In this document: one piece after another, positions 3,001 to 47,550 of the stretch
How positions within the stretch are numbered: the stretch's first letter is position 1
Layout of the letters: each line of letters starts with the position of its first letter
Assembly: GCA_003054655.1 (NCBI GenBank)
Contig: QAYZ01000014.1
Location: 372,001 to 436,000, forward strand
From: Spartobacteria bacterium LR76
Lineage (GTDB): Bacteria; Verrucomicrobiota; Verrucomicrobiia; Chthoniobacterales; Terrimicrobiaceae
Length of the DNA: 64,000 bases
Direction: 5' to 3'
The notes under the pieces: generated by a model
What the model saw: only the letters and a program-made list of their open reading frames with translations
Told to the model about the DNA's origin: nothing
The model's database searches: none
Position numbers and translations under genes: made by a program

Positions 3001-3083
3001 TGTCGGCGGTCTCCCCCGAACGAGTCCCCCGGACGAAGAAATGTTTTTCCAGACAAGGGCGTTTTTTTGAAAAACCTTTTCAT
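1..3083 (-). CDS. Verru_Chthon cassette protein A, copy 1 (partial, C-terminus off the left edge)
   Basis: This frame is open from an ATG at 3083 to the window edge, giving about 1,027 residues without the C-terminus. The N-terminus has a basic stretch and one hydrophobic helix (HRGAALVIVLALLVLVLGL), resembling large minor pseudopilins of the GspK/PilX type: Gly at -1 and no Glu at +5. It shares blocks with the complete copy at 48936-52619, for example FWTDDETCKVNVNTSSEG here against FWADDETCKLNINTSSEG there, and DGAYINKPDEG near the left edge against DGAYINKADEG. Comparison with that copy suggests roughly 200 residues are missing. It is the last visible gene of a tight operon B-C-D-A, starting 17 bp after the D gene. 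The family is known only as a Verrucomicrobia four-gene cassette protein; a role in a pseudopilus tip is inference. Confidence 0.85.
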   Translation of the reverse strand, partial: MKRFFKKTPLSGKTFLRPGDSFGGDRRHRGAALVIVLALLVLVLGLVVAFLTRTSTERSASSAYLSSASTRQLAETAINLVQSQIRDATTQGKDVSWNSQPGMIRTSGAAGNPGSAVQKVYKLYSADGLISTAFSQGTDLPSGTWSDDVALWTDLNAPVMGRNPNDPTLDRIPQFPILDPRALGSVEGFSVSSPPTGSKLTGEEKDLRLPMPVKWLYVLQDGKIVAPTGSGCQAVVAGATKDNPVTGRIAFWTDDETCKVNVNTSSEGTYWDTPHVIAKDDWALADKQPAQGEFQRYPGHPAMTALSPVLFADSATLTEPLTKAERDAIYEIVPRVVGGGSDAGTVIAPGALKPDADRLYASVDELIFSSNRTSQTAASGLTSKKLEAARFFLTASSRAPEVTLFNTPRVAVWPVVYNHLTTNASRATAYDRLIAFCSTIGGEPYYFQRENSKSPTADWAGIPRNQELLRYLRALSDLPLPGYGSTLRSKTSVDDRDQLLVEILDYIRCTNLYDDNLTPNGYSSQSAADNAVQFTTGRKTTTLDVWKGHGTVTPLKVPQGLGSSYPSGVPDTTSLQGFGRFATISEAGLFFICCADGAAGTASAPVGPPNGSDSVADAKRASNSFPGDATYPKNKTLVAPLAATERRIQAMLIFDFFAPAHGWTQFAMDYTLEVEQLGGLQVNGISLGIPSPVTVDFGDTGVWGYHPWGSYIGSRKGLVDRYVSEARAPLPADVQSKPYLTPYNLVGVPITISVPSGPNPVMQFSGGTVRVKILSRSAVVQTIDLEFPAADFPIPELKTSGTPASAEGNRGQGTPATDMQYWWAFQRDGAIDGHGGGRLTNPDGRPRNGAGSIIWPTDTFRTVIPYHGDFRLVAGSSYVPPGVFMPTLGYFNTTRVAAGAENYLNPLPQILNQMTGSALSDTEGGPSPGFGAGFFEPPLADRLVANAKYDNKFFPKFPKFKESAGAPDRSAKAFQAYGDFDNGVAVTADGAYINKPDEGNNYRGDGSKVPYFKDNFSQVAVGKTFFS

Positions 3084-3100
3084 GGGAGATATGAGGTGGA

Positions 3101-3772
3101 TCAGCGTCGGTATTCCGTGGCGCGACCTGTCACGGGATTAACTCGCAGAGTGAAATAGTTGAGCGGGGGCACGGACTGATCCTGCTCCGCATGGATGGTC
3201 AGAAAGTCATTGGTCGTGATCGATCCTCCCAGCGATCCCGCCGAGTCGATCCGGATACCGCTGTACGCGCAGTTTCCGTAGCCGGGAACATTCATGGAGC
3301 CACGAATGGAGGGATCCGCCGTAAGCAGCGGGGAGAGTTCCGCCCGCGAGGAAATAATCGTTCCCACGGGAAGTTTGTCCACCCGCCCGATCATCGATGG
3401 CGAGCTTCCCGACGCATCCGCCATCCAGAGCTGAATGGCTCGATAGGAAGAAACTCCATTTTCCTTTAGCTCGATGAAACGCACTTCCACCTCCCTGTTT
3501 TTCAGCGCGGCGTATTGCCTCGCCTGAGCCAGTCGATCAGTCAAAAGTTGCCCTGCTTCGGCCACGTTCCGGCCTCGACTGATCGATTGGAATGCCGGAA
3601 TGGCCAGCGAGGTCAGCACTCCCAGAATCACGATCACGACGAGAAGCTCGACCAGTGAAAATGCCGCAGAACTCCGCGATGTTCGCCGGAGTCGTTCAGG
3701 CTCCACGGTACAGGCCTTGGCAGCCAATCTGGAGCCTGTCTGCGAAAAGGAAATTCTCACGGACTCGTTCAT
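3101..3772 (-). CDS. Verru_Chthon cassette protein D, copy 1 (GspH/FimT-like pseudopilin)
   Basis: The protein of about 223 residues carries a type IV prepilin N-terminus: a basic leader, then AFSLVELLVVIVILGVL with Glu at mature position 5, and Ala rather than Gly just before the processing site. The remainder is a soluble, strand-rich domain, and the C-terminus LRVNPVTGRATEYRR matches the end of the second D protein (LQIDPLTGRVQIFR), which fixes the family. The single-helix, short, strand-rich layout is that of GspH/FimT minor pseudopilins. I chose the ATG at 3772 because it overlaps the stop codon of the upstream C gene in an ATGA arrangement; an in-frame ATG at 3784 would add four residues. 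It lies between C and A of cassette 1 and is probably translationally coupled to C. Confidence 0.85.
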   Translation of the reverse strand: MNESVRISFSQTGSRLAAKACTVEPERLRRTSRSSAAFSLVELLVVIVILGVLTSLAIPAFQSISRGRNVAEAGQLLTDRLAQARQYAALKNREVEVRFIELKENGVSSYRAIQLWMADASGSSPSMIGRVDKLPVGTIISSRAELSPLLTADPSIRGSMNVPGYGNCAYSGIRIDSAGSLGGSITTNDFLTIHAEQDQSVPPLNYFTLRVNPVTGRATEYRR

Positions 3773-26070: not shown

Positions 26071-26408
26071 TGCAAAATATCAACGCCGGATACTTCGATT
26101 AGGCCATGACATCCGCTGTCATAAAAAGGACGAACGTTTGGAAAATGCGACATCGTTAGTGCCGCCCCCGTGGGGAAGACATGTCTCCTTGGTGCTCTGG
26201 TGAGTAAAGCGGCGTGTAAAAAAATGCGAGCAGGGTACTGAGCGTACCACCAGTTGGCTGGACGGAAAACTTCCCCCGCAATGCTCTTAACTCCGGCCGC
26301 CTTATTCACTAGGTGACGAGCAAAGAGAGTCGTATTTTCAAAAGCCATTTCGGGATATTTGAATTCTCCATCGTTGCCGCCGCGTGGACATTGAAGACCA
26401 TTAGGGCG
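26071..26408. other. Divergent intergenic region, sialidase-like gene 2 / protease-PEP-CTERM gene
   Basis: 338 bp holding the 81-bp duplicated leader at the left. The remaining 255 bp up to the ATG at 26409 contain no convincing gene or hairpin; they must include the promoter of the plus-strand operon. No GTTAACTGG element is present. Confidence 0.55.
26073..26153 (-). repeat. Duplicated 81-bp leader, copy 2
   Basis: Counterpart of 21649-21729 (72 of 81 positions equal, no gaps). The dyad GACATCCGCTGTC lies at 26108-26120, again 38 bp before the ATG. The leader is better conserved between the paralogues than the first 165 codons that follow, as expected of a selected regulatory region. Confidence 0.65.
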
Positions 26409-29141
26409 ATGATAAAGTTCCCCCTCCGAAAACTTCTTTCGATCTGTCTCCTGCTGTCAGTCGCAGACGGCTACGGCATTCAGGTCGCCGGGGAATCATC
26501 AGAAGCCAATTATCGCTTTGCTTCCGGATTCACGACGGATTCTCCAGTTGAAAACACGAGCCCATTGTTTATTGGAGCTGACTATGACTGGTCCGCCATC
26601 GGATGGATGACGGGTACCGCCACTGCCAGTACAACCCGGGTCACCAATGTTACCATGGTGAGTCCATTGCACGCGTTCAGCGCCCGGCATAATGGCATCT
26701 GGTCGCTGGGCAACAACGTCCGATTCGTTTCCGAGAACGGAAGTGTTGTGAACGTTGGCCTGTCGTCCAGCAATCCTGCGATTTCCATTCCGGGCCAGAG
26801 TCATGATATCAATATCACTCCGTTGGACCGGACTCTCTTGAACTCCGAAGGAGTAACTCCACTGCGACTCCTCGACGTATCCACCAACAACTATGTGGGC
26901 ATGGATGCTTTCGTCATGGGAAGCCACGACAAGACAACCGGGCAGATTGTGGCCACTACTCACATAAAATCTGTGACGCCTTACTCAGGGCAAGGCACCA
27001 TCAATGTCACTCTGAATCCTACTGATCCCACTGTGTCATTTCAGTACTGGGAAGGCGGCGATTCCGGGAGTCCCATCCTCATCCGATATCAGAACACCCT
27101 GACCATAGCCGGCTCCGCGTGGGGCGCGGGCGGATTGGGCGGCTCTCTGCTATCAACGAGGGCAGAGTACAATCCCGTCAAGGCCGTAAACGAGAGAATG
27201 GCGCAAACCGGGTACGCGCTTCGTTGGGCTATTTATGACAACCCCGCGGACGCAGCAAATACCGCCAATGTCTGGCAAGGTGCCACGTCGGATTTCGCGC
27301 AAGCCGGGAATTGGAGCAAAGGAGCTTCTCCCAGCCAGCTTCCGGCGGTCTTCGACTCCGACGACGCTACCGCAAGCCATAGCATCGGCTTAACCCAAAG
27401 CGCCGACGTGCGCGGCATTTTGTTCCGCGAATCCGCGTCCACTCAAGGCTATGCCTTTTCCGGAAGCGCTTCGGTAGGTGTCGGAGCATCGGGTATTCAA
27501 AACCGGTCTCTCGCCACGCATGTTTTTAATATCCCGGTCACCCTTTCCGAGTCCCAGAACTGGGAGGCAATCGGCGGGAATCTCGTCGTAAACGGAGGAA
27601 TCTCCAACAATGGCTATCTGCTTGTTGTTCAAGGAGGCAAGGATACCGCGCTGAACGGTGCGATCTCTGGTACGGGAAGCCTGGCCAAGGACGAGGCCGG
27701 CGTCCTGTCGCTGGGCGGAGCGAATACCTACTCCGGAGGAACGTTCATCCACGACGGCACGGTTAAAGCCCTCGTCAATGGAGCGATTCCTATCGGAGGC
27801 ATGGTGATCTTCGATACGATGAATCCTGGCGCGACTCTGGATGTGAATGGGAAATCGCTGGTCTTTGGCAGCATCAACTCCTTGCGAGGCGGTCTGGGAA
27901 TTGTCAATATGAATGGCGGCTCCATTACCATCGGAGGGACGGACCTTTCGTCCTCCTACTCAGGTGTTTTCACGGGAGGCGGAGTCGTTAACAAAGTGGG
28001 TTCGGGAAACATCACGCTCGCCGGTGATAATAGCGCCTATAGTGGAAAGTTTGTCTTTGAAGGCGGGAATGTGGTCGTCGGCTCCTCCAGCGCCCTTGGT
28101 GGAGGAGAGCATATCGTTAAGACAGGGGCCCGGTTGCTGACTGCCGATAGCCTGGACGTTCGTGGAAACGTCCGGATATCAGCGAATCAAGACTCCAGTG
28201 CCACCATGAACGCGGGTTACGTCTCCAGCGTTGCCATTGCTCTGGGGAGTGCCACGCAGGTTTCCTACCAGGGAGACCTTACACTGGAACGGACAGGTAC
28301 CGGGACCGGCCTGATCAAGTATGCGTTTCAAACGGGAGGAACCGGAGCGCAGACGTTGCGCGTCGATGGGAATATTTCGACATCAGGAAATTCACTGGGG
28401 AAGGTTTCTCTTGAAGGGTGGGTGCAGTCTGACTCAACGGCTACAGTCGAATTTCACGGGCGTATCAGTGATGTCGGCGGCCCCGTCTTGCAAGTAGTGG
28501 CGACCGGCATCGCTGGTGGAACGATCGTTCTTTCGTCCGCGTCCGGGAATACCTTCTCGGGAGGTGTCACAGCCCTGGCAGGCACTTCATTGGTCATTAG
28601 TAACTCTACCGGGTCTGCCACGGGAAACGGGAGTGTGGAGATTTACGCAAACGCCTCACTTTCCGGATCCGGCGTTATTGCTCCCACGGGGAATCATGGA
28701 CTATCAGTGCTCAGCGGCGCTCGTATTGCCGCAGGTCGCAACGGAATCGGCATGATGACAATCGACCTTTCCCAATCAACCGGGAAGGCCGATTTCCAGG
28801 CTGGCTCAAGTTTCCTTTTTGATCTCGCCGACAATCACGCCAGCGATCGGTTGACCTTCTTCGGAGCTGCCAGTGGAGATATTCTCTTTTCGTCAAATAT
28901 AATAGATTTCGCCTCCTCTAGTGATCTTTCCCCTGGACTCTACACTCTCTTCACGTTCGATTCTGCCGGAGCTTACTCGGGTGGACTTGTGATAGGCACC
29001 GGCCTGGAGGCCTATGATGCCCATCTTGTTTTCAATCCGACCAATATCCAGCTCCAGATTGTTCCCGAAGCCAACATCACACTGCAGGTCTGCCTGGGCC
29101 TCGCCATCGTTGGGGTGATGAGTTGGAAAAGAAGGCGCTGA
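26409..29141 (+). CDS. Surface protein: trypsin-like serine protease domain, PATR repeats, PEP-CTERM
   Basis: The 910-residue protein starts with a signal peptide (LRKLLSICLLLSVADGYG). Residues about 45-300 look like a chymotrypsin-fold protease: TMVSPLHAF (His88), NITPLDRTL (Asp140) and WEGGDSGSPILI (Ser219 in GDSG). After that come autotransporter-associated beta-strand repeats (LSLGGANTYSGGTFIHDGT, ITLAGDNSAYSGKFVFEGG, IVLSSASGNTFSGGVTALAG). The end VPEANITLQVCLGLAIVG plus MSWKRRR is a PEP-CTERM-like anchor with PEA in place of PEP. No autotransporter beta-barrel follows. It should be an exported, exosortase-sorted fibre-like protein with protease activity, possibly self-processing. It is upstream of the esterase gene (23-bp gap). 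The ATG at 26409 gives the signal peptide; earlier in-frame codons do not. Confidence 0.8.
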   Translation: MIKFPLRKLLSICLLLSVADGYGIQVAGESSEANYRFASGFTTDSPVENTSPLFIGADYDWSAIGWMTGTATASTTRVTNVTMVSPLHAFSARHNGIWSLGNNVRFVSENGSVVNVGLSSSNPAISIPGQSHDINITPLDRTLLNSEGVTPLRLLDVSTNNYVGMDAFVMGSHDKTTGQIVATTHIKSVTPYSGQGTINVTLNPTDPTVSFQYWEGGDSGSPILIRYQNTLTIAGSAWGAGGLGGSLLSTRAEYNPVKAVNERMAQTGYALRWAIYDNPADAANTANVWQGATSDFAQAGNWSKGASPSQLPAVFDSDDATASHSIGLTQSADVRGILFRESASTQGYAFSGSASVGVGASGIQNRSLATHVFNIPVTLSESQNWEAIGGNLVVNGGISNNGYLLVVQGGKDTALNGAISGTGSLAKDEAGVLSLGGANTYSGGTFIHDGTVKALVNGAIPIGGMVIFDTMNPGATLDVNGKSLVFGSINSLRGGLGIVNMNGGSITIGGTDLSSSYSGVFTGGGVVNKVGSGNITLAGDNSAYSGKFVFEGGNVVVGSSSALGGGEHIVKTGARLLTADSLDVRGNVRISANQDSSATMNAGYVSSVAIALGSATQVSYQGDLTLERTGTGTGLIKYAFQTGGTGAQTLRVDGNISTSGNSLGKVSLEGWVQSDSTATVEFHGRISDVGGPVLQVVATGIAGGTIVLSSASGNTFSGGVTALAGTSLVISNSTGSATGNGSVEIYANASLSGSGVIAPTGNHGLSVLSGARIAAGRNGIGMMTIDLSQSTGKADFQAGSSFLFDLADNHASDRLTFFGAASGDILFSSNIIDFASSSDLSPGLYTLFTFDSAGAYSGGLVIGTGLEAYDAHLVFNPTNIQLQIVPEANITLQVCLGLAIVGVMSWKRRR

Positions 29142-29164
29142 AAAAATCTTCCGAGTTTCTCCTC

Positions 29165-31228
29165 ATGAAAAGAACCTTTCTGGTTTGGTCCGTCATTCTT
29201 TGCCTGGTCTATGGCCCGGCCCGAGCTGATGTAACGCTGCCGGCAATAATCTCCGATCATATGGTGCTGAAGAAAGACGCTCGCGTACCGATCTGGGGAC
29301 GAGGCGCGCCAGGAGAGGAGGTCATCGTTAGCATGAGTGGCCAATCCGCAAAAGCGAATGCCAGTCCAGATGGGAGATGGAGAATCCTTCTGAACCTGGC
29401 CGACTCAGGGCCCGGCCCATTTCAGCTGACCGTGCAGGGAAAAAATACGATCACGATTAGCGACGTTGTTGTCGGCGCGGTTTGGGTGGCTGCGGGCCAA
29501 TCCAACATGGAATGGCCTATCCGGAGAAGCAAGGATGCGCAGGCGGAGATTGCCAGCTCCTTGAACCCCATGTTACGCCAGTTTGAAGTCGCCAAATGCG
29601 CCTCTCCAGAACCCAAGGAGGACTGTCAGGGCCGTTGGGTGACTACGTCGCCGGGGACAACCGGTGCTTTCAGCGCGGTAGGCTATTATTTCGGCAAGGC
29701 ATTACAAAGCGACCTCGGGATTCCCGTGGGACTCATTCATTCATCTTGGGGTGGGACGTCTTCGGAATCTTGGACAAGCACGGCGGCTCTCGACGCAGTG
29801 AAAGAGTTCAAAACCGCCAAGAACGAAATCCACTCTTTCGTCAAGCGACATCCGGAAAAGCAAAGACAATGGGCGATCGACTTCACGGAATGGCTCAAAA
29901 CCAATCATCGAGAGGATAGTTCCGGGAGAGACAAAAACCAGTTCGCTGCTCCCGACACGCCGATTTCAGACTGGCAACCAGTCAAAATCCCAGGACCAGT
30001 CCAAACGGGGAAGATTTCCGGTAGAGGTGCCGTCTGGATACGCACCGAGATCGACATCGCCCAGCCCGGGAGCAATCTTCTGCCGCTGGACCTGGGTGCT
30101 ATGGAAGGCTTCGAAAGCGTTTATTGCAACGGAGTTCCCATCGTCTCCCTGGACTATCGAAATTATCCGGGTGTTGGCTATATTCGAAGACTGGGAAAGT
30201 ACAACATCCCGGCAAACAAGCTGAGACCCGGAAAGAATGTCATCGCCATCCGCATCTACGCACCATCGGATGAGGCGAGTTTTCCCACCTCGATAACGAT
30301 CGGTGACAAGATTCCCAATGCAGGTTGGACGGCCGCGGAAGAGTACTCTCTCCCCGTCCTGACCGCTTCTCAAAGATCCTCGATGCCCAAGCCGCCGGAG
30401 GCACCTCCACCGCCGCAGAGCGTCGCATCATTCCTTTTTAACGGAATGATCCGCCCGATCATCCCGTACGCGATTAGCGGCGTGATCTGGTATCAGGGAG
30501 AGTCCAATGCCGAGCGAGCATTCCAATATCAGACCGCATTTCCCTTGCTCGTTGAGGATTGGCGCCGATCATGGCAGCAGGGTGAATTTCCCTTCTATTT
30601 CTGCCAGCTTCCCAACTATCTTGCCAAGAAGCCCGCTCCTGGCGAAAGTGCATGGGCCGAACTCCGGGAAGCCCAGTCGATGGCGCTCTCTCTGCCCGCC
30701 ACCGGCCAGGCCGTTCTCATCGACCTCGGCGACTCCCGGGATGTCCACCCTGTCGATAAACGGGAGGTGGGGCGGCGGCTCTCGCTCATAGCACTTGCCA
30801 AGGACTATGGACGGAAGATCCCTTTCTCCGGACCGGTCTTTCAGTCGGTGACTTTTGAATCTGGGAAAGCCAGGGTTCGATTTTTCCATGCCGATGGAGG
30901 GCTGAAGGCCACTCCTGTTCCTGCGACTTATTCCGTGAGCAGTCGGGATAATGAAACTGCTCCGATGGTTCGCAATAATCCGAATAGTGAACTCGAGGGC
31001 TTTGCGATCTGCGGCGAGGACAAAAAGTGGGTGTGGGCGAACGCAAAAGTCGAGGGAGACAGTGTCATCGTCTGGTCCGACAAAGTGGCGGCCCCCATCG
31101 CCGTGCGTTATGGCTGGGCGGATAATCCCACCGTCAATCTCAGCAATGGATCCGGCCTGCCCGCGTCGCCGTTCCGCACCGACGATTTTCCGGCTACGAC
31201 GCAAAATGCCAGATACACCGGGAGGTAG
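29165..31228 (+). CDS. Sialate O-acetylesterase-family esterase (SASA/CE20-like)
   Basis: The 687-residue protein has a signal peptide (MKRTFLVWSVILCLVYGPAR) and the catalytic features of the SASA family: AAGQSNMEW with nucleophile Ser113, GLIHSSWGGTSSESW, IWYQGESNAE, and DSRDVHPVDKREVGRRL carrying the Asp/His. A carbohydrate-binding-like insert interrupts the hydrolase (about 250-390). Homologues remove acetyl groups from sialic acid, xylan or xyloglucan; near the sialidase-like genes either is possible. It should act in the periplasm or at the surface. The ATG at 29165 avoids overlap with the preceding gene and begins the signal peptide directly. It is followed 37 bp later by the ABC-transporter operon, probably on the same transcript. 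Confidence 0.85.
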   Translation: MKRTFLVWSVILCLVYGPARADVTLPAIISDHMVLKKDARVPIWGRGAPGEEVIVSMSGQSAKANASPDGRWRILLNLADSGPGPFQLTVQGKNTITISDVVVGAVWVAAGQSNMEWPIRRSKDAQAEIASSLNPMLRQFEVAKCASPEPKEDCQGRWVTTSPGTTGAFSAVGYYFGKALQSDLGIPVGLIHSSWGGTSSESWTSTAALDAVKEFKTAKNEIHSFVKRHPEKQRQWAIDFTEWLKTNHREDSSGRDKNQFAAPDTPISDWQPVKIPGPVQTGKISGRGAVWIRTEIDIAQPGSNLLPLDLGAMEGFESVYCNGVPIVSLDYRNYPGVGYIRRLGKYNIPANKLRPGKNVIAIRIYAPSDEASFPTSITIGDKIPNAGWTAAEEYSLPVLTASQRSSMPKPPEAPPPPQSVASFLFNGMIRPIIPYAISGVIWYQGESNAERAFQYQTAFPLLVEDWRRSWQQGEFPFYFCQLPNYLAKKPAPGESAWAELREAQSMALSLPATGQAVLIDLGDSRDVHPVDKREVGRRLSLIALAKDYGRKIPFSGPVFQSVTFESGKARVRFFHADGGLKATPVPATYSVSSRDNETAPMVRNNPNSELEGFAICGEDKKWVWANAKVEGDSVIVWSDKVAAPIAVRYGWADNPTVNLSNGSGLPASPFRTDDFPATTQNARYTGR

Positions 31229-31265: not shown

Positions 31266-32249
31266 ATGGCCAGCTCACCGTGCGAGTATCCGAGGTTGCC
31301 CGTATCCCCGCCGCTTCCGGCGAGGGGACGCACCGCCGGGCCCGTTATCGTCGTGCTGATTTTTGGCGGGACGATACTTTTCCTCTGGTGGAGCGCCGTC
31401 CACTCAGGCCTTGAAAAAGCGGTTCCGCCGGAAGAACTCCTCGGGAAGGCGTGGGAGGCGTTTCGGCAGATCGAATTCGAGAAAGCCGCCAGACTCTTTC
31501 AGATCGTCGAGTCCAGCACCCCCGAAGACTCGGAGACCCACATCGAGGCTATTTACGGGGAGGCGTCCTGTGCGAATCATCGCCGATCCGGGCGGGACCT
31601 GAAACGGGCTCTGGCACTTTACGAGGCGATTCAAAAACAGCATCCGGCCAGCCTGTGGGCGCCATGGGCGGCGCTCGCCGCCGTTCGAGCCAGTCATCTC
31701 GAACCCTCCGACCTGGAGCTTCCTTACAAAAAACTCAGCTCCAAATATGTGAAGGTTTATCAGGAGCATCCAAATACGCCCGCTGGCGAGGAGGCGTTTC
31801 TTTACCATTGCCGGATCATAGCTTCCCTGGGTTCCCGAGAGGAGGCCTCGAAACTCCTGCGGGAAATTGACGATTTCCTGAGTCGCCATCCGGGGGCGGT
31901 TTATCAACCTCTTCTCGATGCCATGGCGGCGGAATGTTATCACATTCTGGGCCGGGAAGACGATCGGATCGAAGCGATGGCGCGATCGATTGCCGCCTTT
32001 GAACGCGACCCGACGGTTCCCTTCTATGAACTTTCCAGTGCGTACTGGAACGTCGCCTATGCTGCGGAATTCGAGGCGGGAAACTTTGCCGTCGCCAGGA
32101 AGTATTATGAACTATTCTTGAAGGAATTTCCCAACGAGGATCGCGCTTTTGGTTGCCGACAAGCCCTGGCGCGCATTGATCGCGTCGAAAAAGCTCTCCG
32201 GGAGGGAAAACAGCCCGAGGCGGAATGGCTCGCCGTCCCGTGCCAATGA
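31266..32249 (+). CDS. Membrane-anchored TPR-like protein of the sugar ABC operon
   Basis: The 327-residue protein has one N-terminal membrane helix (PVIVVLIFGGTILFLWWSAV) and then a helical-repeat region of TPR type: AWEAFRQIEFEKAARLFQIV, ALALYEAIQKQHPASLWAPW, SKLLREIDDFLSRHPG, ARKYYELFLKEFPNEDRAFG. It is probably anchored in the inner membrane with the repeats in the periplasm, where it may scaffold the transporter or a cell-envelope complex. Its stop codon overlaps the start of the binding-protein gene (ATGA), so the two are coupled. The start is uncertain: ATG at 31266 is taken, while an upstream ATG at 31206 would overlap the esterase gene by 23 bases. A TPR partner is not a standard part of sugar ABC importers. 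Confidence 0.7.
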   Translation: MASSPCEYPRLPVSPPLPARGRTAGPVIVVLIFGGTILFLWWSAVHSGLEKAVPPEELLGKAWEAFRQIEFEKAARLFQIVESSTPEDSETHIEAIYGEASCANHRRSGRDLKRALALYEAIQKQHPASLWAPWAALAAVRASHLEPSDLELPYKKLSSKYVKVYQEHPNTPAGEEAFLYHCRIIASLGSREEASKLLREIDDFLSRHPGAVYQPLLDAMAAECYHILGREDDRIEAMARSIAAFERDPTVPFYELSSAYWNVAYAAEFEAGNFAVARKYYELFLKEFPNEDRAFGCRQALARIDRVEKALREGKQPEAEWLAVPCQ

Positions 32250-33949
32250 AAAAGGTCCTTGGCCAAGTTATCGTTAGGTTTCCCTGGGTGGTCATCTCCG
32301 CGGTTTTTCTTTGGTCGGTCTTTTCCATCGTCTTGCGAAAAGAGAGCGAGCCGTCTCCAGGGGAAACGGTTATCCGTCTCGCCCATTGGCAACTCGAGCC
32401 CGGAGTGCGGGAGGGGTTCGCCGAAATTGCCGCCGAATACGAAAAGCTGCACCCTGGCGTCAGGGTCATCCAGCAAGCCATTCCTGAAAGCACCTATGGC
32501 CAATGGTTGAGCACCCAGCTCATAGGTGGCACCGCGCCCGACATTGTCGAGGTGGGTATGGTGGACTATTCCCTGCTCCTCGTCTTCTACAGCCGCTATC
32601 TGCTGCCGCTCTCCCCTTACATCACGCGCCCGAACCCATACAATACCGGCACCGAATGGGAGGACGCGCCGCTCTATAGCACATTCAAAAACGGAATGAT
32701 CCATTCCTTCATTCCGGAGATTCAGGAATACATGGTGATGCCCCTTGCGATGGGCAGTGTCCGACTTTTTTACAACAAGACCTTGCTCACGGAACTCACC
32801 GGCCTCAACGCCCCTCCGACCGAGTATCGGGCCTTCATGGAAATGATCCAGGTGATCCAGTCGAAGAAGATGCCAAACGGGCAGCCTTACGCAGCTTTCT
32901 CGGGCTCACGCTATCACTTTTCGCGACTGGAGGATAGCATGGCGAATCCCCTTAGCTATGGCACCATCCGGAAGATTGATTTCAACCGCGATGGACGATT
33001 CAGCAACAACGAGATGTTCCTGGGGTTTCTAAGCGGTAAAATTGACTTCTCCGACCCCTCTTATATGGCCAGATTTCACATGGTCGAAGACCTGACGAAA
33101 ATGTTCCAGTCCGGCTGGGCTGGCCTTTCCCGGGACGAGGGCTTTTTCAGTTTTGCCCAGCAGCGAGCGGTGTTCACTGCCGCAGGGATTTACGAGAACT
33201 CAGCCATCCAGAGCCAGGCCTGCAGCAAGTTTGAGCTGGGGATCATGGACTTCCCCGTTCCAAACCAGGACGATCCGATCTTTGGTCGCGCCTTCGAGGG
33301 CAGGCGATATGAAAAGCCAGAAGGCAACATGCCCATGGGGATTGTCCGTACCTCCCGGCATCCAGACGTTGCCGCCGACTTCCTGCTTTTTCTCGCCAGC
33401 CAAAAGCAGAACGAAAAATTCAATGCACTCTTAAAGTGGATTCCCATTGTCAAGGGAGCGAAGATCGCCCCGTCGCTTGAGGTCTTTGAACCCAATGTCA
33501 ATGGCGTCACCTCGGCATTCGACCCCAACGCATTTGGAAACTCGACCGTGAGGTGGAACCAACTCTACTCCCTCTTTCTGATCCATCAGATTCCCTACGC
33601 GGACATGGCCCACGAGTTTACGAAATTTTACATCAATGACGGACGGGAAAATTTCCGCAAAATGCTGCAAAACCGACGGCGATCCCATTCGCAGAACGAA
33701 GCCATTCTCGTCGGACTTCGTCAAACCATCCTCTCGGGGGTGGAGGACTCGGCGAAATCCGCAGGAAACAAATATCGGACGATCCTGCGGCGCCAGATCG
33801 CGGATGAACACAACCTGCTGTTGCAGGAGCGGATCTTCACGGATCCGGAGTCGGCCAAAGGGGAAACCCTGTACAAATACACGCCAGAGGCACTGGAAAA
33901 TGCCAGGCGACGCCTGAATTCTTCCTCCTCTGCCGAGCGCTTTGAATGA
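32246..33949 (+). CDS. Sugar ABC transporter, family 1 solute-binding protein (membrane-anchored, extended)
   Basis: The 567-residue protein is a family 1 extracellular solute-binding protein: ETVIRLAHWQLEPGVREGF, EYEKLHPGVRVI, LIGGTAPDIVEVGM and, later, AVFTAAGIYENSAIQSQ. The N-terminus is an uncleaved-looking helix (WVVISAVFLWSVFSIVL) with no lipobox Cys, so it seems tethered to the inner membrane. It is over 100 residues longer than usual: the C-terminal part (about 460-567) is charged and probably helical or coiled coil (QNEAILVGLRQTILSGVEDS, ILRRQIADEHNLLLQERIF). The ATG at 32246 overlaps the TPR gene stop. It delivers an oligosaccharide to the fused permease encoded directly after. Confidence 0.85.
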   Translation: MKKVLGQVIVRFPWVVISAVFLWSVFSIVLRKESEPSPGETVIRLAHWQLEPGVREGFAEIAAEYEKLHPGVRVIQQAIPESTYGQWLSTQLIGGTAPDIVEVGMVDYSLLLVFYSRYLLPLSPYITRPNPYNTGTEWEDAPLYSTFKNGMIHSFIPEIQEYMVMPLAMGSVRLFYNKTLLTELTGLNAPPTEYRAFMEMIQVIQSKKMPNGQPYAAFSGSRYHFSRLEDSMANPLSYGTIRKIDFNRDGRFSNNEMFLGFLSGKIDFSDPSYMARFHMVEDLTKMFQSGWAGLSRDEGFFSFAQQRAVFTAAGIYENSAIQSQACSKFELGIMDFPVPNQDDPIFGRAFEGRRYEKPEGNMPMGIVRTSRHPDVAADFLLFLASQKQNEKFNALLKWIPIVKGAKIAPSLEVFEPNVNGVTSAFDPNAFGNSTVRWNQLYSLFLIHQIPYADMAHEFTKFYINDGRENFRKMLQNRRRSHSQNEAILVGLRQTILSGVEDSAKSAGNKYRTILRRQIADEHNLLLQERIFTDPESAKGETLYKYTPEALENARRRLNSSSSAERFE

Positions 33950-33950
33950 C

Positions 33951-35945
33951 ATGATCGAAAAACGCATCCCCTGGCGCCACGTTCGATACCACTGGGAAAT
34001 CTATCTCTTCGCCGTACCGGTCGTCTTTCTTCTCGCGCTCTTTCATTATTATCCGACGGCGAGCAGCATCTACCATAGCTTCTTCCGCTGGAATGGCGCC
34101 GATATATCGGAGTTTGTTGGCTTCAAGAATTACCGGGATCTCTTTGCCTCGAAGACCTTCTGGCAATCCTTCCGGGTCGCTTTTCTTCTCGGTGGCTGGA
34201 ATGTCGTGAAAATGGCACCGGCTCTCATCGTTGCCGTATGGATCCACCGCTGCCGCAGCGAACGCGCACAATTTTTCTACCGAGTTATGTTCGTGGTGCC
34301 GATAGTCATCCCGTTTCTGGTCGTCGCCCTGATCTGGCGGACATTTTTTTTCGAGGCCACCCAGGGCTTATTAAACACGGTTCTTTCCGGTACAGGCTTT
34401 ATGACGGTCCTGTGTCGCCTCGACGCTTTTTTCCATTGGGGAGGGATCTTCGTCGAGGGGGGGCATCCCGCGTGGCTCGGTGATCCCCGGCTCGTGCTTG
34501 CCGCTTGCGTCATTTGGGGATTTCCTTGGATCGGTTCCTTCGCGGTGCTAACCCATCTCGCCAAGCTCCAGAACATTCCCAAGGAGATCTACGAAGCCTC
34601 GGAAATTGACGGAGCCACGTGGTGGAGTAAATTCTCCCGGATCGAGGTGCCGCTTCTGATGAGTTCCATCTATCTGATGCTTGTCTTCGTGATTATCGGA
34701 ACCATCAAGGATGCCAGCATGATCATCGCCCTGACCGGAGGGTTGGATGGCGGTCCGGGGGGGCTGGCCACGGTGCCGGCGCTCTTCATGCTGCGCAAGG
34801 CGCTGGTGAATCAGGAAATGGGGGCTGCATGCGCGGTAGGCATCATTCTCACCGTGGTCGTGATGACCCTGCAAAAACTCAGCGCGTATTTGCTAGGCGA
34901 AGAGCGATGTTCTTCGCCGGGAAGAACCGCTGTCCGTCTCTTGGGACTGCTTTTCGCCGCGGCGCTCCTTTTGCTCCTTCCGGAGTGGCGTACGATCGGC
35001 GTTTTTCTTTTCCTCGGGTGTTTTCCCTTCTCCGCTGTGTTTGCCTTTCTCCGCGAAAGGATTCCCTTTCCAAGCCTTCCTTCGCGTCGGGAAGGCCTGA
35101 AATCGTCCAGCTTCTTGTCCGAAAAAGTGAAGGATTTTTTCCTGCGATTTTTCAAGCACGCCGGGATCTGGACCGTGCTGACGTTCGCATTTGTGCCTGT
35201 CTATCTGATGCTCATCGTCAGCGTGAAAACCAATCAACAGTTTTACGAGGCTCCGGGAGTTCTCACCCCTCCCATGCAGTGGCGGAACTGGATCGACGCT
35301 TGGGGAATGATCTCGCCCAGTCTTGCCAACAGCATCTTTATCTCGACGACAAGCACCGTGATCACCCTCTTCCTGTCGCTTTGCGGAGCCTACTTCTTTA
35401 CCCGCCTCCGGATGCCGCTTTCGGGTTTCCTTTGGAATGCCCTGCTTATTCTTCTCATGATGCCGACGATCGCCAACTTGGTCCCACTCTTCCGGCTTCT
35501 CGGCAGCATGAATCTTCTGAACACCTTTACCGCCTTGATTTTCGTGGGAGCCTCCAGCGGCCAGATTTTCGGCATTTTTGTTCTGCGCAATTTTATCGCA
35601 GACATTCCGGGAGACTTATTCGAGGCGGCGGAGATCGATGGTGCGAACCATTTTCAGCAAATGATGATTGTCGTCCTCCCCCTTTGCGGCCCGATTCTTG
35701 GCACCATCGGGGTCATGCATTTCATCAACGAATGGAACGAATTTGTCCTGCCTCTCGTCGTGATGAGCGACACCGCCTCCCTCCCTGTCATGGTGCAGTT
35801 GCAAAGACTTGCCGGAGAATATGTCAAATTTTTCGGCCCGCTTATGGCAGGATACGCCATTGCCAGCATCCCCGTGATCGCCCTGTTCATGTTTTCGATG
35901 CGTTTGTTCGTCAGGGGACTGACTGATGGCGGATCGAAAGGCTGA
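33951..35945 (+). CDS. Fused sugar ABC permease (UgpA/MalF-like plus UgpE/MalG-like in one chain)
   Basis: The 664-residue membrane protein holds two complete permease units. Unit 1 (about 10-320) ends with the cytoplasmic coupling loop KEIYEASEIDGATWWSKFSR (about 211-231). Unit 2 (about 400-664) has GDLFEAAEIDGANHFQQMMI (about 554-573). These are the two EAA loops that each normally sit in a separate subunit. A linker of about 80 residues with two or three extra hydrophobic segments (VRLLGLLFAAALLLLLPEW, TIGVFLFLGCFPFSAVFAFL) joins them, keeping both EAA loops on the cytoplasmic side. No stop codon or frameshift separates the halves in this assembly. The ATG at 33951 follows the binding-protein stop by one base. 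The ATPase is likely the MsmX/UgpC-type protein at 38857-39975. Confidence 0.88.
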   Translation: MIEKRIPWRHVRYHWEIYLFAVPVVFLLALFHYYPTASSIYHSFFRWNGADISEFVGFKNYRDLFASKTFWQSFRVAFLLGGWNVVKMAPALIVAVWIHRCRSERAQFFYRVMFVVPIVIPFLVVALIWRTFFFEATQGLLNTVLSGTGFMTVLCRLDAFFHWGGIFVEGGHPAWLGDPRLVLAACVIWGFPWIGSFAVLTHLAKLQNIPKEIYEASEIDGATWWSKFSRIEVPLLMSSIYLMLVFVIIGTIKDASMIIALTGGLDGGPGGLATVPALFMLRKALVNQEMGAACAVGIILTVVVMTLQKLSAYLLGEERCSSPGRTAVRLLGLLFAAALLLLLPEWRTIGVFLFLGCFPFSAVFAFLRERIPFPSLPSRREGLKSSSFLSEKVKDFFLRFFKHAGIWTVLTFAFVPVYLMLIVSVKTNQQFYEAPGVLTPPMQWRNWIDAWGMISPSLANSIFISTTSTVITLFLSLCGAYFFTRLRMPLSGFLWNALLILLMMPTIANLVPLFRLLGSMNLLNTFTALIFVGASSGQIFGIFVLRNFIADIPGDLFEAAEIDGANHFQQMMIVVLPLCGPILGTIGVMHFINEWNEFVLPLVVMSDTASLPVMVQLQRLAGEYVKFFGPLMAGYAIASIPVIALFMFSMRLFVRGLTDGGSKG

Positions 35946-35988
35946 GCATCGCCTCGAAGTCCGCCAAAAACCACGAACCACTTTACCC

Positions 35989-38697
35989 ATGTGCCACGTC
36001 TTTCGGTTCCTCCTGTTTTTCCCCGTCGCTCTCGGGTCTTTATGGTCTGCGGATATCCATCTCAGCCCGGGGGGGGCGATCTCCACTCTGGAGGCGGCCC
36101 GCGACGCCGCCCGCCTAGCCGCGAAACCCGCGCGAATCATCGTCGGCAAGGGGGTATTCTCGATCACAGAACCCCTTGCATTGGGTCCTCAGGATTCACA
36201 GGTCACCTGGGAGGGAAGTTCCGACGGCCAGTCTGTCATCTCGGGTGGTCGCAGGATTGGAGGCTGGAAACCTGTCGGAGGCGGTCTTTGGCGCGCCGAG
36301 ATCGCTGAGGTGCGCGAGGGGAAATGGCACTTCGAGCAACTTTGGGTCAATGGCTGCCGGGCCGTGCGCGCTCGCACTCCAAACAAGGGCTTCCTCCACA
36401 TGGACGCCCCGGCCACTTCCGGCATTTTTCCCAATGAAGGGCCGGATGAGAAAAAATGGGAGGACAGCCTCCGGAATCTAGCGTTTTGCGCCTCACCCGA
36501 AACCATTAGGGAACTGGGCAAGGCAACTCCCGGGGAACTTGGAGACATTACCCTGATCGTTCCTCACAATTGGGATGTCTTTCACTACCACGTGAAAAAG
36601 ATCGATCACGTGGCAGGTGCGGTGTTGATGAAGCCTCATGAGGAGGCCGAGTTTCGCCAACTGCTGCCAATCAAGGATCCCAGCGGTCGTTTTTACGCAG
36701 AGAACTATCGCGCCGCTCTGGACGCACCTGGAGAATGGTTTCTGGGGCGTGACGGAGGCCTTCACTACTATCCACTTCCAGGCGAGGATATGTCACATGC
36801 GGAAGTCGTGGCCCCCCTAGCGAATACGTTGGTGAAAGTCGATGGAGCCGAGAACATCACATTCAGAAACATATCCTTCGTTCACCAGCAATGGACCATG
36901 GACGCCAATGGATACGGCGATTCCCAATCATCGCATCGCTTGGGTGCTGCCATTGAAGTGAACCGCTCGAAAGACATCATCTTCGAGCAATGCGAAATTG
37001 CCCACATCGGCACCTATGGGATTTGGTTCGACCTCGACGTAACAAAAAGTGGAATAAGGCATAGCCATATCCATGACCTAGGAGCGGGTGGAGTTCGGGT
37101 CGGCCCCACGGCTCAACTGAACGACCTCGTTGAGGGAACCGGCTTCATCACCATCGACAACAATATCATCCAACAGGGCGGGCGAATCTTTCCCGACGCC
37201 GTCGGCGTTCTGGTTGGCTACGCAAGCGACAACGCGGTTACCCACAATGACGTTGGAGATTTCTTCTACACTGGAATTAGCTCCGGTTGGCATTATGGCT
37301 ACGGCGAGTCTTTCGCATATCGAAACCGCTACGAGAACAACCATATTCATCATCTGGGATGGGGAGTTCTGAGCGACATGGGCGGATTCTACAATCTCGG
37401 GGCAGCCCTGGGCACGGTGGTGAAAGGGAATCATATTCACGACATCAGCCGGTATCGCTACGGAGGATGGGGGATATATGCCGACGAGGGTACAAGCGGG
37501 ATTCTAGTTGAGAACAATCTCGTGCATGACACCACCGATCCCGGGTTTCGGCAGCACTATGGATTTTATAATATCATCAGGAACAATATCTTTGCCTTCG
37601 GAAAAAACGCACAGATCGGTCGCTCCAAGCCCGAGGGAAGGCTTCGGTTTATTTTCGAAAGAAACATCGTGGTTTGGAATGAGTCAGCGGATTTACTGGA
37701 GGGAGACGCATCCAATTGGAACTATCAGGAAAAGCCGCTCCCCGGTGAGCCGAAGAAAAGCTACGAGATACGTAACAACCTATACTGGCCCATAGGAGGC
37801 AAAATGCCCGCCCGGCTTGCCGGGACTTGGACTTGGGAGGAATGGCGGCAGCGCCGGGACAAAGGTACTATCGTGACTGACCCCCTGTTTGAAAATGTGC
37901 TTGCCCGCGATTTTCGGCTGAAAGCCGACAGCCCCGCCAAGGAGATTGGCTTTGTACCGTGGGACTTAAGCCGGGCGGGCGTACGCGCCGACGGTCCAAA
38001 AGGCGCCGCCTGGCCGCGCTTGGCCGCGCAATTGACGTTCCCGAACTGGAGCGAAGACTCCCAGCCGTGGCCCCGACGTCCTTTCACTATCAGACGGAAC
38101 ACCTTTGAAAATGCCGCTCCGGGAACACTGCCACTCCTCACAGCTGACCCTCATACAGAGAACGAAGGAGACTTGATCGCCGTCTCAGAAGATGTCTCGT
38201 CGCCCATCCCATTGGACGGAAGCTCTTTGGCGAAATCCTTGAGATCCGTGAAGTTTCAACGGACAGACGGTCCTTCAAGCCGCCATGGTCCGTTTCTCAC
38301 CCTGTCGCCAAACTGGGAAGAGGGAACATTCAAGATCACCTTTGACGTTATGGGACAAACGGGCGCCGATTGGTTCTTTGAAATGCGAACTGCTACCTAC
38401 GGCGAATACAGTGCAGGCCCCCGCATCTCGTGGCAACACGGAAGCCTTGTCGCCAACAAATCTGTCACCTTGTGTGATCTTCCTCCGCGTGAGTGGGTGC
38501 GCGTATCAGTTACGGCAACCCTTGGCACGGGTAGATGGAACTTGTCTTTGACTCGGCAAAACGGGACAGTTCAGAATTTCGAAGACCTTCCCTGCAAAAT
38601 GGATTGGAACCGGTGTTCCAGCCTTGTTTGGGTAGCTGCCGCGGAAACGAACGCCGCGTTTTTTATAGATAATCTGGAGATTTCAGCGATGCCATAG
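35989..38697 (+). CDS. Secreted right-handed beta-helix glycosidase (GH141-like)
   Basis: The 902-residue protein has a signal peptide (CHVFRFLLFFPVALGSLWSA). The N-terminal region has the 'ISGGRRIGGW...LWRAEI' and 'QLWVNGCRAVRARTPN' blocks typical of beta-helix enzymes of the GH141/GH120 type, followed by parallel beta-helix coils rich in NNIIQQGG, NNHIHHLGWGVLSDMGG, NHIHDIS and NNLVHDTTDPG. A C-terminal jelly-roll-like domain (about 740-902, FDVMGQTGADWFFEMRTATY) may bind carbohydrate. Known GH141 members act as alpha-L-fucosidase or xylanase; specificity here is open. It is the last gene of the ABC operon (43-bp gap after the permease), so its product likely generates the ligand for that importer. 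Confidence 0.7.
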   Translation: MCHVFRFLLFFPVALGSLWSADIHLSPGGAISTLEAARDAARLAAKPARIIVGKGVFSITEPLALGPQDSQVTWEGSSDGQSVISGGRRIGGWKPVGGGLWRAEIAEVREGKWHFEQLWVNGCRAVRARTPNKGFLHMDAPATSGIFPNEGPDEKKWEDSLRNLAFCASPETIRELGKATPGELGDITLIVPHNWDVFHYHVKKIDHVAGAVLMKPHEEAEFRQLLPIKDPSGRFYAENYRAALDAPGEWFLGRDGGLHYYPLPGEDMSHAEVVAPLANTLVKVDGAENITFRNISFVHQQWTMDANGYGDSQSSHRLGAAIEVNRSKDIIFEQCEIAHIGTYGIWFDLDVTKSGIRHSHIHDLGAGGVRVGPTAQLNDLVEGTGFITIDNNIIQQGGRIFPDAVGVLVGYASDNAVTHNDVGDFFYTGISSGWHYGYGESFAYRNRYENNHIHHLGWGVLSDMGGFYNLGAALGTVVKGNHIHDISRYRYGGWGIYADEGTSGILVENNLVHDTTDPGFRQHYGFYNIIRNNIFAFGKNAQIGRSKPEGRLRFIFERNIVVWNESADLLEGDASNWNYQEKPLPGEPKKSYEIRNNLYWPIGGKMPARLAGTWTWEEWRQRRDKGTIVTDPLFENVLARDFRLKADSPAKEIGFVPWDLSRAGVRADGPKGAAWPRLAAQLTFPNWSEDSQPWPRRPFTIRRNTFENAAPGTLPLLTADPHTENEGDLIAVSEDVSSPIPLDGSSLAKSLRSVKFQRTDGPSSRHGPFLTLSPNWEEGTFKITFDVMGQTGADWFFEMRTATYGEYSAGPRISWQHGSLVANKSVTLCDLPPREWVRVSVTATLGTGRWNLSLTRQNGTVQNFEDLPCKMDWNRCSSLVWVAAAETNAAFFIDNLEISAMP

Positions 38698-38856: not shown

Positions 38857-39975
38857 TTAAGCAATGCGGACGGTTGTTATAGGATCGAAAAGATGGATGT
38901 TTTCTGTCTTGATTGCGAATAGGTGCTGATGTCCAGCATCACTTTGATTGACGGTTGAACGACTGCGGCAGATCAGCGAGTGTCTGCCGGTCCCAATATG
39001 GATATAGCTTTCTGATCCCATGGGTTCGACCAGATCGATGATCGCGGTGAAGGCGTTCTCCGACGAACCTTTGTTTGAGGTGACCATCTCGCAATCTTCA
39101 GCGCGCACTCCTAGGATGACTTCCTTTCCAATATAGGGTGATACCACTTCACGAGCTTGGAAATTCAGGGTGACGGCGCCGTTCTGCTTTTCCCGGAAAA
39201 AAACTGCTCCGCCCGCTCTTTCCAAGGTGCCTTCGACGAAGTTCATCGGAGGGCTTCCGAGAAAGCCCGCCACAAAAAGATTCGCCGGTTCGTGGTAGAT
39301 CTTGAGTGGAGTGTCCACTTGCTGAATGAAACCGTCTTTCATCACGACAATGCGAGTGCCCATGGTCATCGCTTCGATTTGATCATGGGTAACGTAAATG
39401 ACTGTGGCCTCGAGACGCTGGTGGAGTCTTGTGATCTCCATCCGCATCTGCACACGCATTTTTGCGTCGAGGTTCGATAGCGGTTCGTCAAAGAGAAAGA
39501 CCTTCGGGTGGCGAACGATCGCACGTCCGACCGCCACACGTTGGCGCTGACCTCCCGATAGTGCCTTTGGTAGACGCTCAAGATATTGCCTGATGCCCAG
39601 GATGTCTGCTGCCTCCATTACCCGCTTATGGATTTCCGCTTTTGGGTATTTTCGCAGTTTGAGGCCGAACGCCATATTGTCGTACACACTCATGTGCGGA
39701 TAGAGCGCATAGTTTTGGAAGACCATGGCGATATCGCGATCCTTGGGCGGCACGTCGTTCACCAGCTTTTCATCAATGAAGACTTCGCCTCTAGAGATTT
39801 CCTCCAAGCCCGCGATCATCCGCAGGCTTGTTGACTTGCCGCAGCCGGATGGCCCAACGAATACCACAAATTCGCGGTTAGCGACCTCTAGATTAAAGTC
39901 TGTGACGGCAGTAACGTCTGCGCCTCTTTCGCCAGGATAGATTTTATAGACGTTTCGAAGAGTAACGTTTGCCAT
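38857..39975 (-). CDS. Sugar ABC transporter ATPase (UgpC/MsmX/MalK family)
   Basis: The 372-residue protein has all ABC motifs: Walker A GPSGCGKST (41-49), Q-loop VFQNYALYPH, signature LSGGQRQRV (139-147), Walker B VFLFDEP (159-165) and the H-loop VTHDQIEAM. The C-terminal third is the TOBE/regulatory domain of the MalK group (FLGSPPMNFVEGTLE, then VILGVRAEDCEM). It energises an oligosaccharide importer; the nearest partner is the fused permease at 33951-35945, whose operon converges with this gene. Being monocistronic and on the opposite strand, it may serve several importers as MsmX does in Bacillus. It starts at the ATG at 39975. A 9-bp palindrome TCGTGACGA lies about 15 bp upstream. Confidence 0.9.
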   Translation of the reverse strand: MANVTLRNVYKIYPGERGADVTAVTDFNLEVANREFVVFVGPSGCGKSTSLRMIAGLEEISRGEVFIDEKLVNDVPPKDRDIAMVFQNYALYPHMSVYDNMAFGLKLRKYPKAEIHKRVMEAADILGIRQYLERLPKALSGGQRQRVAVGRAIVRHPKVFLFDEPLSNLDAKMRVQMRMEITRLHQRLEATVIYVTHDQIEAMTMGTRIVVMKDGFIQQVDTPLKIYHEPANLFVAGFLGSPPMNFVEGTLERAGGAVFFREKQNGAVTLNFQAREVVSPYIGKEVILGVRAEDCEMVTSNKGSSENAFTAIIDLVEPMGSESYIHIGTGRHSLICRSRSTVNQSDAGHQHLFAIKTENIHLFDPITTVRIA

Positions 39976-45807: not shown

Positions 45808-47550
45808 CTACGCGATGCGTTTGTTGCGGCGTGAGCGTAGCACCAGGAACAAGCCCGCTCCAATCAACAACGCGGTTGTCGAAGGCTCCGGAATTACGAC
45901 CAGGTTCAGCCCGCTCGCCTGAAAGTACGCTGATTTTCCGCCGCCCAGGTCATAGGCATTGGAAATACCGATATTGGAGACATTGGTCAGGCTGACCGTG
46001 GCGGAGCCATTGATGAGCGCATAAGTGCCCGAGGCTGTCGCGGAGGAAAGCCCGACGAGATCCGCCACGCTGAAGCCGCCGAAGGTCACGGAAGCCCCGT
46101 TCACGGTCAGGGTGTTTGTCAGGCTGAAGACAAACTTCGCGCCGGACTGCAAGGCAAGGGAGCCGCCGATTGTCCCATCGCCACCGATGGATGCTCCCGA
46201 GTTGACCGTGACAGCGCCTGTTGCGGCGGAACTGTCTCCTTCAATGAGCAGCGTTCCGGCTGAGACTGTTGTCGTGCCATTATAGGTGTTCGTGCCGGTG
46301 AGGACCCATTTTCCGTTTCCCGCCTTGATCAGGTTTAGCGTAGTGGCTGATCCATTGGTGATGGCTCCGATGGAATTTGATGCCGTGCTGCTGCCCTGAA
46401 GCGTGAAGTTTTTGACTCCGCTGCTTGCGCCGGCAATCCCGTTGCTGACGATCAGCGCCCCACTGCCGTCGGCCTGCAGGGCGGAGGCGGAGGAGTTGAT
46501 CTGGAACGTCTTGGCTGTGGTTTCGCCGGAACCATTGTAGATCAGGCTGCCGCTGTCCGCCGGCAGGCTGCCTAGCTTGATGGATCCGCTTCCGAGGTTG
46601 GTATTGATGGAGCCCACTTTAATGGCTCCGCCGCGGATGACGGTGCCTCCGCTTGAGGTATTGGTTCCGGTGAGTGTGAGCGTTGTTGTCCCCGTTTTTG
46701 TCACGCCTGACGATGCGCCGACTCCTGTGATATTGTTTGCAAACGTATAGTCTGAAGTCTGGGCGAAGGTCAGCACCGTGCTGTTGTCATTCAGATTCAC
46801 TGCGCCCGTGCCCAGTGAGCCTGCGGTGCCTCCCAACGTGAGCGAGCCGCGTACGTCCGTGGTGCCGGAGTAGGTGTTGGCACCGGTGATGGTTTTGGCT
46901 CCTCCACCCCAGATCCAGAGATTGGCCGTTCCACTGATGACCCCGTTCAGGGTCAACGCACCGCGGGAAACCATGATCTGCTGATTGCCGGAGACCGCGA
47001 GGTTCGCGTTCATCGTCACGTAGGGCAGATTCGAACTGCTCACCGAGCCGACATCGATCAGGAAATTTCCCACCGTCCCTGCTCCGGCAGACGACCCGTA
47101 GCTCGTACTGGTGCCGCTCAGCGTGATGGTCTGTCCGCCCACCGTCGAGCCAATGGTGATGATGTTTGCGCTATTGGTATTCGCGTAGTTGAAGAAAAGC
47201 GTGTTTCCCGTCTGGTTTCCATTGAGGCTGACGGTGAATGGTGAGGTCACGGTGGATCCCCCCGCCACGAAGACGAGATTGTCAGTGGCTGAGGTGCTGG
47301 TTTGAAACGCTCCGCCGCCTCCGCCGGTGGAATCGGTGTTCCAGAAATTGCTTGTGCCCCAGGTTCCCGTCGGCACATCACCCGCTCCCGCCGTCGTACC
47401 ATTCGTGTCCCAATAAAGATTCGTCGCCGATGCGGAAGCCATCGCAACTGCCAGTGCGGCCAGGGTGCTGAGTACCGGTTTCGTCTGCGCGAGGGGAGCA
47501 CCGCTGTGTCCGGTGCATGACTTTTTGGCGGTGGATAAGGTGGTGTTCAT
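45808..47550 (-). CDS. PATR-repeat PEP-CTERM surface protein
   Basis: The 580-residue protein has a long signal region (KPVLSTLAALAVAMASASA), repeated autotransporter-associated beta-strand units (KTITGANTYSGTTDVRGSLT, TTLTLTGTNTSSGGTVIRGG, GKWVLTGTNTYNGTTTVSAG) and a C-terminus VIPEPSTTALLIGAGLFLV with a basic tail RSRRNKR. It should form a beta-helix fibre sorted by an exosortase; no autotransporter barrel is present. A GTTAACTGG operator lies 78 bp upstream of the ATG at 47550, and CAACCTCCC lies nine bases before the ATG. Composition is very rich in Gly, Thr and Ser. It is the first gene of the series leading to the GH50-like enzyme and esterase, perhaps holding the polysaccharide near them. 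Confidence 0.85.
   Translation of the reverse strand: MNTTLSTAKKSCTGHSGAPLAQTKPVLSTLAALAVAMASASATNLYWDTNGTTAGAGDVPTGTWGTSNFWNTDSTGGGGGAFQTSTSATDNLVFVAGGSTVTSPFTVSLNGNQTGNTLFFNYANTNSANIITIGSTVGGQTITLSGTSTSYGSSAGAGTVGNFLIDVGSVSSSNLPYVTMNANLAVSGNQQIMVSRGALTLNGVISGTANLWIWGGGAKTITGANTYSGTTDVRGSLTLGGTAGSLGTGAVNLNDNSTVLTFAQTSDYTFANNITGVGASSGVTKTGTTTLTLTGTNTSSGGTVIRGGAIKVGSINTNLGSGSIKLGSLPADSGSLIYNGSGETTAKTFQINSSASALQADGSGALIVSNGIAGASSGVKNFTLQGSSTASNSIGAITNGSATTLNLIKAGNGKWVLTGTNTYNGTTTVSAGTLLIEGDSSAATGAVTVNSGASIGGDGTIGGSLALQSGAKFVFSLTNTLTVNGASVTFGGFSVADLVGLSSATASGTYALINGSATVSLTNVSNIGISNAYDLGGGKSAYFQASGLNLVVIPEPSTTALLIGAGLFLVLRSRRNKRIA

Follow-up and report, generated by a model that had tools for sequence, protein, structure and literature searches.

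CUT1 permeases are textbook heterodimers, and the locus studied here raises the question of whether both of their subunits can be made naturally as one chain and, if so, what joins them and how both keep facing the same side of the membrane. A first-pass annotation of the window (the whole stretch of 64,000 nucleotides that was analyzed) had read one frame as such a natural fusion, with 664 residues, two EAA loops, and a join of about 80 residues carrying extra membrane segments. All of these elements could be located, as follows.

33951..35945, forward strand: fused permease of 664 aa, composed of a MalF-like half, a linker with a predicted hairpin, and a MalG-like half
33951..34904, forward strand: N-terminal MalF/GlcT-like half, residues 1-318, with BPD_transp_1 at residues 93-305
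34593..34613, forward strand: first EAA loop, EASEIDG, residues 215-221, read from the translation and kept in relatives
34905..35135, forward strand: linker, residues 319-395, the fastest-changing part of the protein (dN/dS 0.35-0.43)
34917..35060, forward strand: predicted membrane hairpin within the linker, residues 323-370, with modelled helices at 323-342 and 344-357/360-370
35136..35942, forward strand: C-terminal MalG/GlcU-like half, residues 396-664, with the GlcU model at residues 409-661
35622..35642, forward strand: second EAA loop, EAAEIDG, residues 558-564, read from the translation and kept in relatives

The ATG at 33951 lies one base past the stop codon of the upstream binding-protein gene. 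BPD_transp_1 was matched in two stretches of the 664-residue frame (Pfam, 75 bits), and the join, at residues ~319-395, measures ~77 residues and holds two hydrophobic segments. In NCBIfam, the N-terminal half matches MalF, GlcT, and UgpA and the C-terminal half GlcU, MalG, and UgpE, with all of the named sugar-permease models scoring under their own cut-offs on this protein; relatives of the halves among solved structures are chains of SugA/SugB, MalF/MalG, and AlgM1/AlgM2. The protein thus has the two units expected of a CUT1 permease, one MalF-like and one MalG-like, each with its EAA loop, but in a single frame, conserved in relatives, rather than in the usual two separate chains.

Could this frame merely reflect an assembly or sequencing error that removed a stop or a frameshift between malF and malG? 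In the sister group, which keeps MalF and MalG as two genes, the genes adjoin and some overlap by a few bases, so that one lost stop would join them. However, a search of 58 related genomes gave one match covering both halves not only in G000, the genome of this locus, but also in G001 (97%), G005 (93%), G041 (71%), and G055 (29%). When G000, G001, G005, and G041 were aligned, frame and length proved identical in G001 and G005, with zero indels, and the G041 permease was one residue shorter, the missing residue lying in the linker. Moreover, the linkers of 42 distinct fused rows differ widely in length, and a 77-residue linker is not what would result from reading through the short junction seen in the sister group. 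The probability of an artefact is therefore close to nil, the relatives' sequences refuting it. In both halves, most nucleotide differences from G001 and G005 are at third codon positions; in the same comparison dN/dS is 0.04-0.07 in the halves versus 0.35-0.43 in the linker; judged by these sequences, both halves are under purifying selection. The claim of a natural fusion is thereby borne out.

The first-pass annotation had also called for a survey of homologues, and this survey shows that the fusion is not a one-off. Scanning named genomes with an alignment of the C-terminal half and keeping the best 80 of 183 relatives, we found both halves in one frame in 30 loci (L058-L086 and L124), at 60-99% identity; the other 50 of these 80, at 42-54% identity, have two frames in 49 cases, with L108 not judged. 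Phylum labels of the fused loci were taken from record titles, which include Verrucomicrobia, Chthoniobacterales, Kiritimatiellae, Lentisphaerae, Planctomycetota, Hydrogenedentota, Spirochaetes, and one Nitrospiraceae; since most of these relatives are metagenome-assembled genomes, the odd phyla are possibly misbinned. Verrucomicrobia bacterium LW23 carries both forms, one fused (L068) and one separate (L090). In a class-wide search, 39/384 genomes matched at E <= 1e-36, at least 8 of them with the fused form (G000, G001, G005, G041, G084, G122, G140, and G177). A phylum-wide search matched 21/387 genomes at E <= 1e-90, all 21 with the fused form, a cut-off that favors fused forms because separate halves score lower.

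To judge from trees built on the two halves with the linker excluded, the fusion of the MalF-type and MalG-type units is old and has one origin for the whole clade apart from L016. In a 90-row tree, made by a quick method and with some long branches, the 33 fused rows of this family make up a single group (SH-aLRT 98); L108, its N-half not being covered, was omitted from this tree, and L054, L057-L060, L139, and L140 were dropped beforehand as repeats of other genomes. In a more careful 50-row tree, from which L183 (whose linker is the same as that of L078) and L016 had been dropped, 42 fused rows split from 8 chosen separate rows with 100/100 support. L016 itself (positions 1405-3360, G055) is a second MalF-MalG fusion, 29% identical and distant from the main fused clade on the 90-row tree. 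Its linker of 61 residues has one hydrophobic stretch by hydropathy, which, if membrane-spanning, would break parity (see below). None of the 387 genomes gave a relative of L016, a count that is uninformative because L016's own genome was not seen among them. Stop-to-stop frames containing both halves (e.g., 628 aa in G036, 627 aa in G037, 611 aa in G045, and 608 aa in G053) were dropped as candidates for further fusions: the nine such frames that were opened (L015, L026, and L039-L045) hold two genes each, sharing a frame or overlapping.

An AlphaFold model of the 664-residue permease (53-row alignment; mean pLDDT 82.5, pTM 0.79) predicts that the two halves form the usual type I pseudo-dimer. 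As a whole, the model aligns best with a fused iron permease, FbpB (9j4r_A; 472 residues, Z 23.2, rmsd 4.5, 16% identity), while taken separately residues 9-315 align with the MalF chain 4jbw_H (Z 21.4; SugA likewise at Z ~21) and residues 395-655 with SugB 8hps_B (Z 20.4; MalG likewise at Z ~20). FbpB (9j4r) and FutB thus resemble the permease in having two units per chain and a pseudo-dimer fold, FutB being described in PMC3654945 as having 12 TMSs and internal repeats of six TMSs each. The same paper places two extra helices of MalF at its N-terminus, unlike the linker hairpin described here. In sequence, however, the permease does not belong with FbpB and FutB: identity to FbpB is only 16%, its best matches by sequence are to sugar permeases, none of its 13 NCBIfam matches is an Fbp-type model, the halves are sugar-type and come from different families (MalF versus MalG), and the linker helices are additional. 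PhnU2 (TIGR03262), a putative 2-aminoethylphosphonate permease, has a 546-position model that matches part of the protein, but at 57 bits it falls far below the cut-off of 593. The CUT1 importers MalFGK2, SugABC (LpqY), AlgM1M2SS, and GlcTUV are alike in the sequence and fold of the permease halves, in the EAA loops, in an SBP_bac_1 protein, and in a UgpC/MalK-like ATPase encoded in the genome; they differ in having separate permease chains in place of one chain with a hairpin linker. The separate MalF/MalG pairs of the sister clade (e.g., L090 in LW23) have a C-half 42-54% identical and an SBP gene upstream but consist of two genes. In the titles and abstract openings covered, largely outside subscription journals, we found no report of a fused MalF-MalG permease or of the gene cassette described below. 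Iron importers with two fused units are known (FutB and FbpB), and by its sequence the sugar-type fusion would be a variant not found in that literature.

Taken together, the permease at 33951-35945 very probably forms, as modelled, the complete membrane channel of a sugar importer of the CUT1 type in one chain, in an FbpB-like arrangement. Its linker is predicted to be a two-helix hairpin: hydropathy gives two segments at all four settings, and the model places helices at 323-342 and 344-370 (block pLDDT 80-92), flanked by less certain hinges (block pLDDT 65 at residues 311-320 and 58-61 at 371-390). The low confidence of the stretch after the hairpin, at 371-390, together with the fast change of the linker, would also suit a chain that is cut in the linker, or a MalG half that is additionally made from an internal start, such that the working channel would be an ordinary heterodimer. 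Yet residues 306 to 419 contain no methionine, so that an internal ATG start for a separate MalG half is not apparent, and the fusion has been retained over a deep clade; we consider such a heterodimer improbable. In the single-chain channel that we favor, the linker would exit and re-enter on the cytoplasmic side, forming a single membrane hairpin. Such a hairpin is permissible, since with an even helix count the second half keeps its orientation, and both EAA loops would stay in the cytoplasm.

The first-pass annotation had held that the linker must contribute a number of helices that keeps both EAA loops cytoplasmic. Across the fused clade, linkers range from 31 to 351 residues and seem, by prediction, to contain 0, 2, 4, 6, or 12 helices. 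When the 42 rows were classed by linker length (L064, L067, and L179 by eye), 5 had zero helices, 23 two, 3 four, 9 six, and 2 twelve. The parity part of the claim fits these predicted classes, whereas helices as such are not required, given a helix-free clade with linkers of 31-48 residues. With a home-made topology predictor, which combines hydropathy with the positive-inside rule and gives 5 or 7 helices for some C-halves, the helix count of N-half plus linker was even in 43/43 rows (the 42 and L016) at one setting and in 39/43 at a looser one, L071, L074, L080, and L141 being odd. Predictor and length classes disagree in places (2 helices for L064; at one setting, 4 for L075 and 0 for L170). 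By hydropathy alone, most linkers of the six-helix class show 5 helices, those of the twelve-helix class 10 or 11, and several of the two-helix class 1, and because of these odd counts parity is supported rather than proved. The topology and structure predictions that had been asked for agree with the claim insofar as the two modelled linker helices are compatible with parity, the clean pattern appearing only with the positive-inside predictor.

How did such different linkers arise? On the 50-row tree, all five rows with zero helices fall in a single clade (84/91) that lies within the two-helix rows, which makes loss of the helices likely. A profile built from 16 one-hairpin linkers matched the first hairpin of L083, L064, and L067 (23, 23, and 16 bits) and the last hairpin of L080, L075, and L071 (17, 13, and 11 bits), in all six cases above the shuffled controls (100 per sequence, best at most 8.1 bits); for L076, L072, and L073 the scores did not exceed those of their own shuffles. 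In L078, whose model is poor (mean pLDDT 59.5) with the first six of its twelve linker helices the best, the second six-helix block matched a profile of the first at 24 bits (best of 200 shuffles, 8.7), a result that favors tandem duplication. The block profile recognized neither the second block of L072 (0.5 bits) nor the linker of L083, which argues against the simplest duplication story for both, but the second L072 block can be aligned with its L078 counterpart (24% identity, E 2e-14). The linkers of L078, L072, L083, and L067 have zero Pfam domain matches. Growth by hairpins, perhaps via more than one route, is likely from these comparisons, and the linker is probably a tolerant site at which hairpins were lost once and multiplied several times. 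L078 and L080 are 91% identical where aligned, yet their linkers differ by about six predicted helices. The fused family is thus a natural experiment on membrane topology, in which pairs of this type offer a direct way to check whether only even insertions are tolerated, and the linkers of the clade provide a ready set for building single-chain importers to study the asymmetry of the two halves.

To obtain a view of the partners with which the permease would work, we considered its neighbors.

29123..31228, forward strand: SASA-type esterase (Pfam), in a sugar context
31266..32249, forward strand: TPR protein with an N-terminal membrane segment (weak TPR matches), first gene of a TPR-SBP-permease cassette
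32225..33949, forward strand: SBP_bac_1 solute-binding protein (SBP) of 574 aa, in which a membrane segment lies at the N-terminus and no lipobox cysteine is visible
35926..38697, forward strand: beta-helix protein with a weak GH141 match, its start overlapping the permease end by 20 bases
38857..39975, reverse strand: UgpC/MalK-like ATPase with an OB domain, ~2.9 kb downstream (NF008653, 469.9 bits; cut-off 432)

The binding protein, which matches SBP_bac_1 with 55 bits, is the adjoining family 1 binding protein typical of CUT1 systems, and its relatives have the same arrangement of an N-terminal membrane segment. A profile found the TPR gene upstream in 26/30 named fused loci, the site not being covered in L073, L079, and L124; the exception is L086, with neither a TPR nor an SBP gene in the 4 kb upstream of the fused permease. 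Weaker TPR matches occur in 13/50 separate loci, counted with a profile that was built on fused loci and is biased to them, and suggest that this gene was probably in place before the fusion arose. The operon of the fused permease contains no ATPase gene, and in the flanks examined an ATPase match of more than 250 bits to the one at 38857-39975 was present in 0 fused loci and in 7/50 separate loci. The energy source is consequently assigned by elimination, the candidate partner being the ATPase at 38857-39975 or a second UgpC-like ATPase in G000 that is 72% identical to it (L163, G000:C14:210289-211395). The latter is a candidate shared ATPase: no permease gene was called near it, by a greedy gene finder that had itself missed L163 and may have overlooked a neighbor, and the permease search found no second CUT1 permease pair in G000. 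Two other two-unit frames of G000, of 610 aa (C10) and 573 aa (C11), were excluded as transporters of other kinds, the former judged by eye to be nitrate/taurine-like and the latter ferric/phosphonate-like. Two further loci, C12:12494-14069 and C11:1406827-1409345, are presumably a phosphate system and a polyamine system, respectively.

The wider setting is rich in sugar-related genes, with GH2, GH3, GH42-like, GHL6, SASA, BNR, CBM9, and GDSL genes within the 64,000-nt window, and this GH/SASA/CBM9 setting fits an oligosaccharide substrate. L058 and L059, which are the records of G001 and G005, likewise have the SASA-type esterase upstream. From all of this we infer sugar transport, an oligosaccharide substrate class, and the ATPase partner. 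The membrane-anchored SBP, whose gene immediately precedes that of the permease, would bring the oligosaccharide to the channel, where the halves would pair as a type I pseudo-dimer with both EAA loops facing the cytoplasm. These loops would presumably dock onto an ATPase dimer, as in fused FbpB-type importers, and a UgpC/MalK-type ATPase encoded elsewhere in the genome (at 38857-39975, or its 72% paralogue) would drive import. Fusion would set a 1:1 ratio of the halves and make their pairing obligate, and its age and stability suggest that such obligate pairing is workable.

Alternatively, the extra helices may be more than tolerated and have a task of their own, for instance to keep the TPR protein or the membrane-anchored SBP in place. 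At least one hairpin is present in 37/42 fused rows, the second helix has a recurring proline-aromatic end, and genes for membrane-anchored SBP and TPR proteins lie next to the permease gene. The zero-helix clade, however, has the same halves, one member (L063) also having TPR and SBP genes, and dN/dS is high in the linker; we consider a separate task less likely than not. Building on the single-chain importer, we therefore put forward only tentatively the fuller picture of a long-lived importer class of Verrucomicrobiota and neighboring phyla, made of a TPR protein, an anchored SBP, a fused permease, and a shared ATPase, in which the joint would be a modular membrane domain with a task of its own, its hairpins gained, lost, and duplicated in steps of two (0, 2, 4, 6, and 12).

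Several further observations concern the surroundings. PATR-repeat (autotransporter-passenger-like) proteins are encoded at 26313-29141 and 45808-47550, in the same sugar-rich region. Relatives carry another CUT1 system, with the SBP fused to a MalF-like permease (L046 5731-8616, L047 2080-4782, L048 1991-4693, L051 4131-6659, and L052 2532-5057); these proteins of 842-962 aa contain SBP_bac_1 and BPD_transp_1 and adjoin a MalG-like gene whose product (557-748 aa) is extended far at its N-terminus and in two cases gives a short GH42 match. The genes directly downstream of the fused loci belong to no one common family. Directly after the permease in L071, L075, L077, L078, and L080 lies a gene for a small protein of ~195-230 aa with a shared GDEIPL.SH stretch, which follows several six- and twelve-helix forms and whose copy in L077 has no Pfam match.
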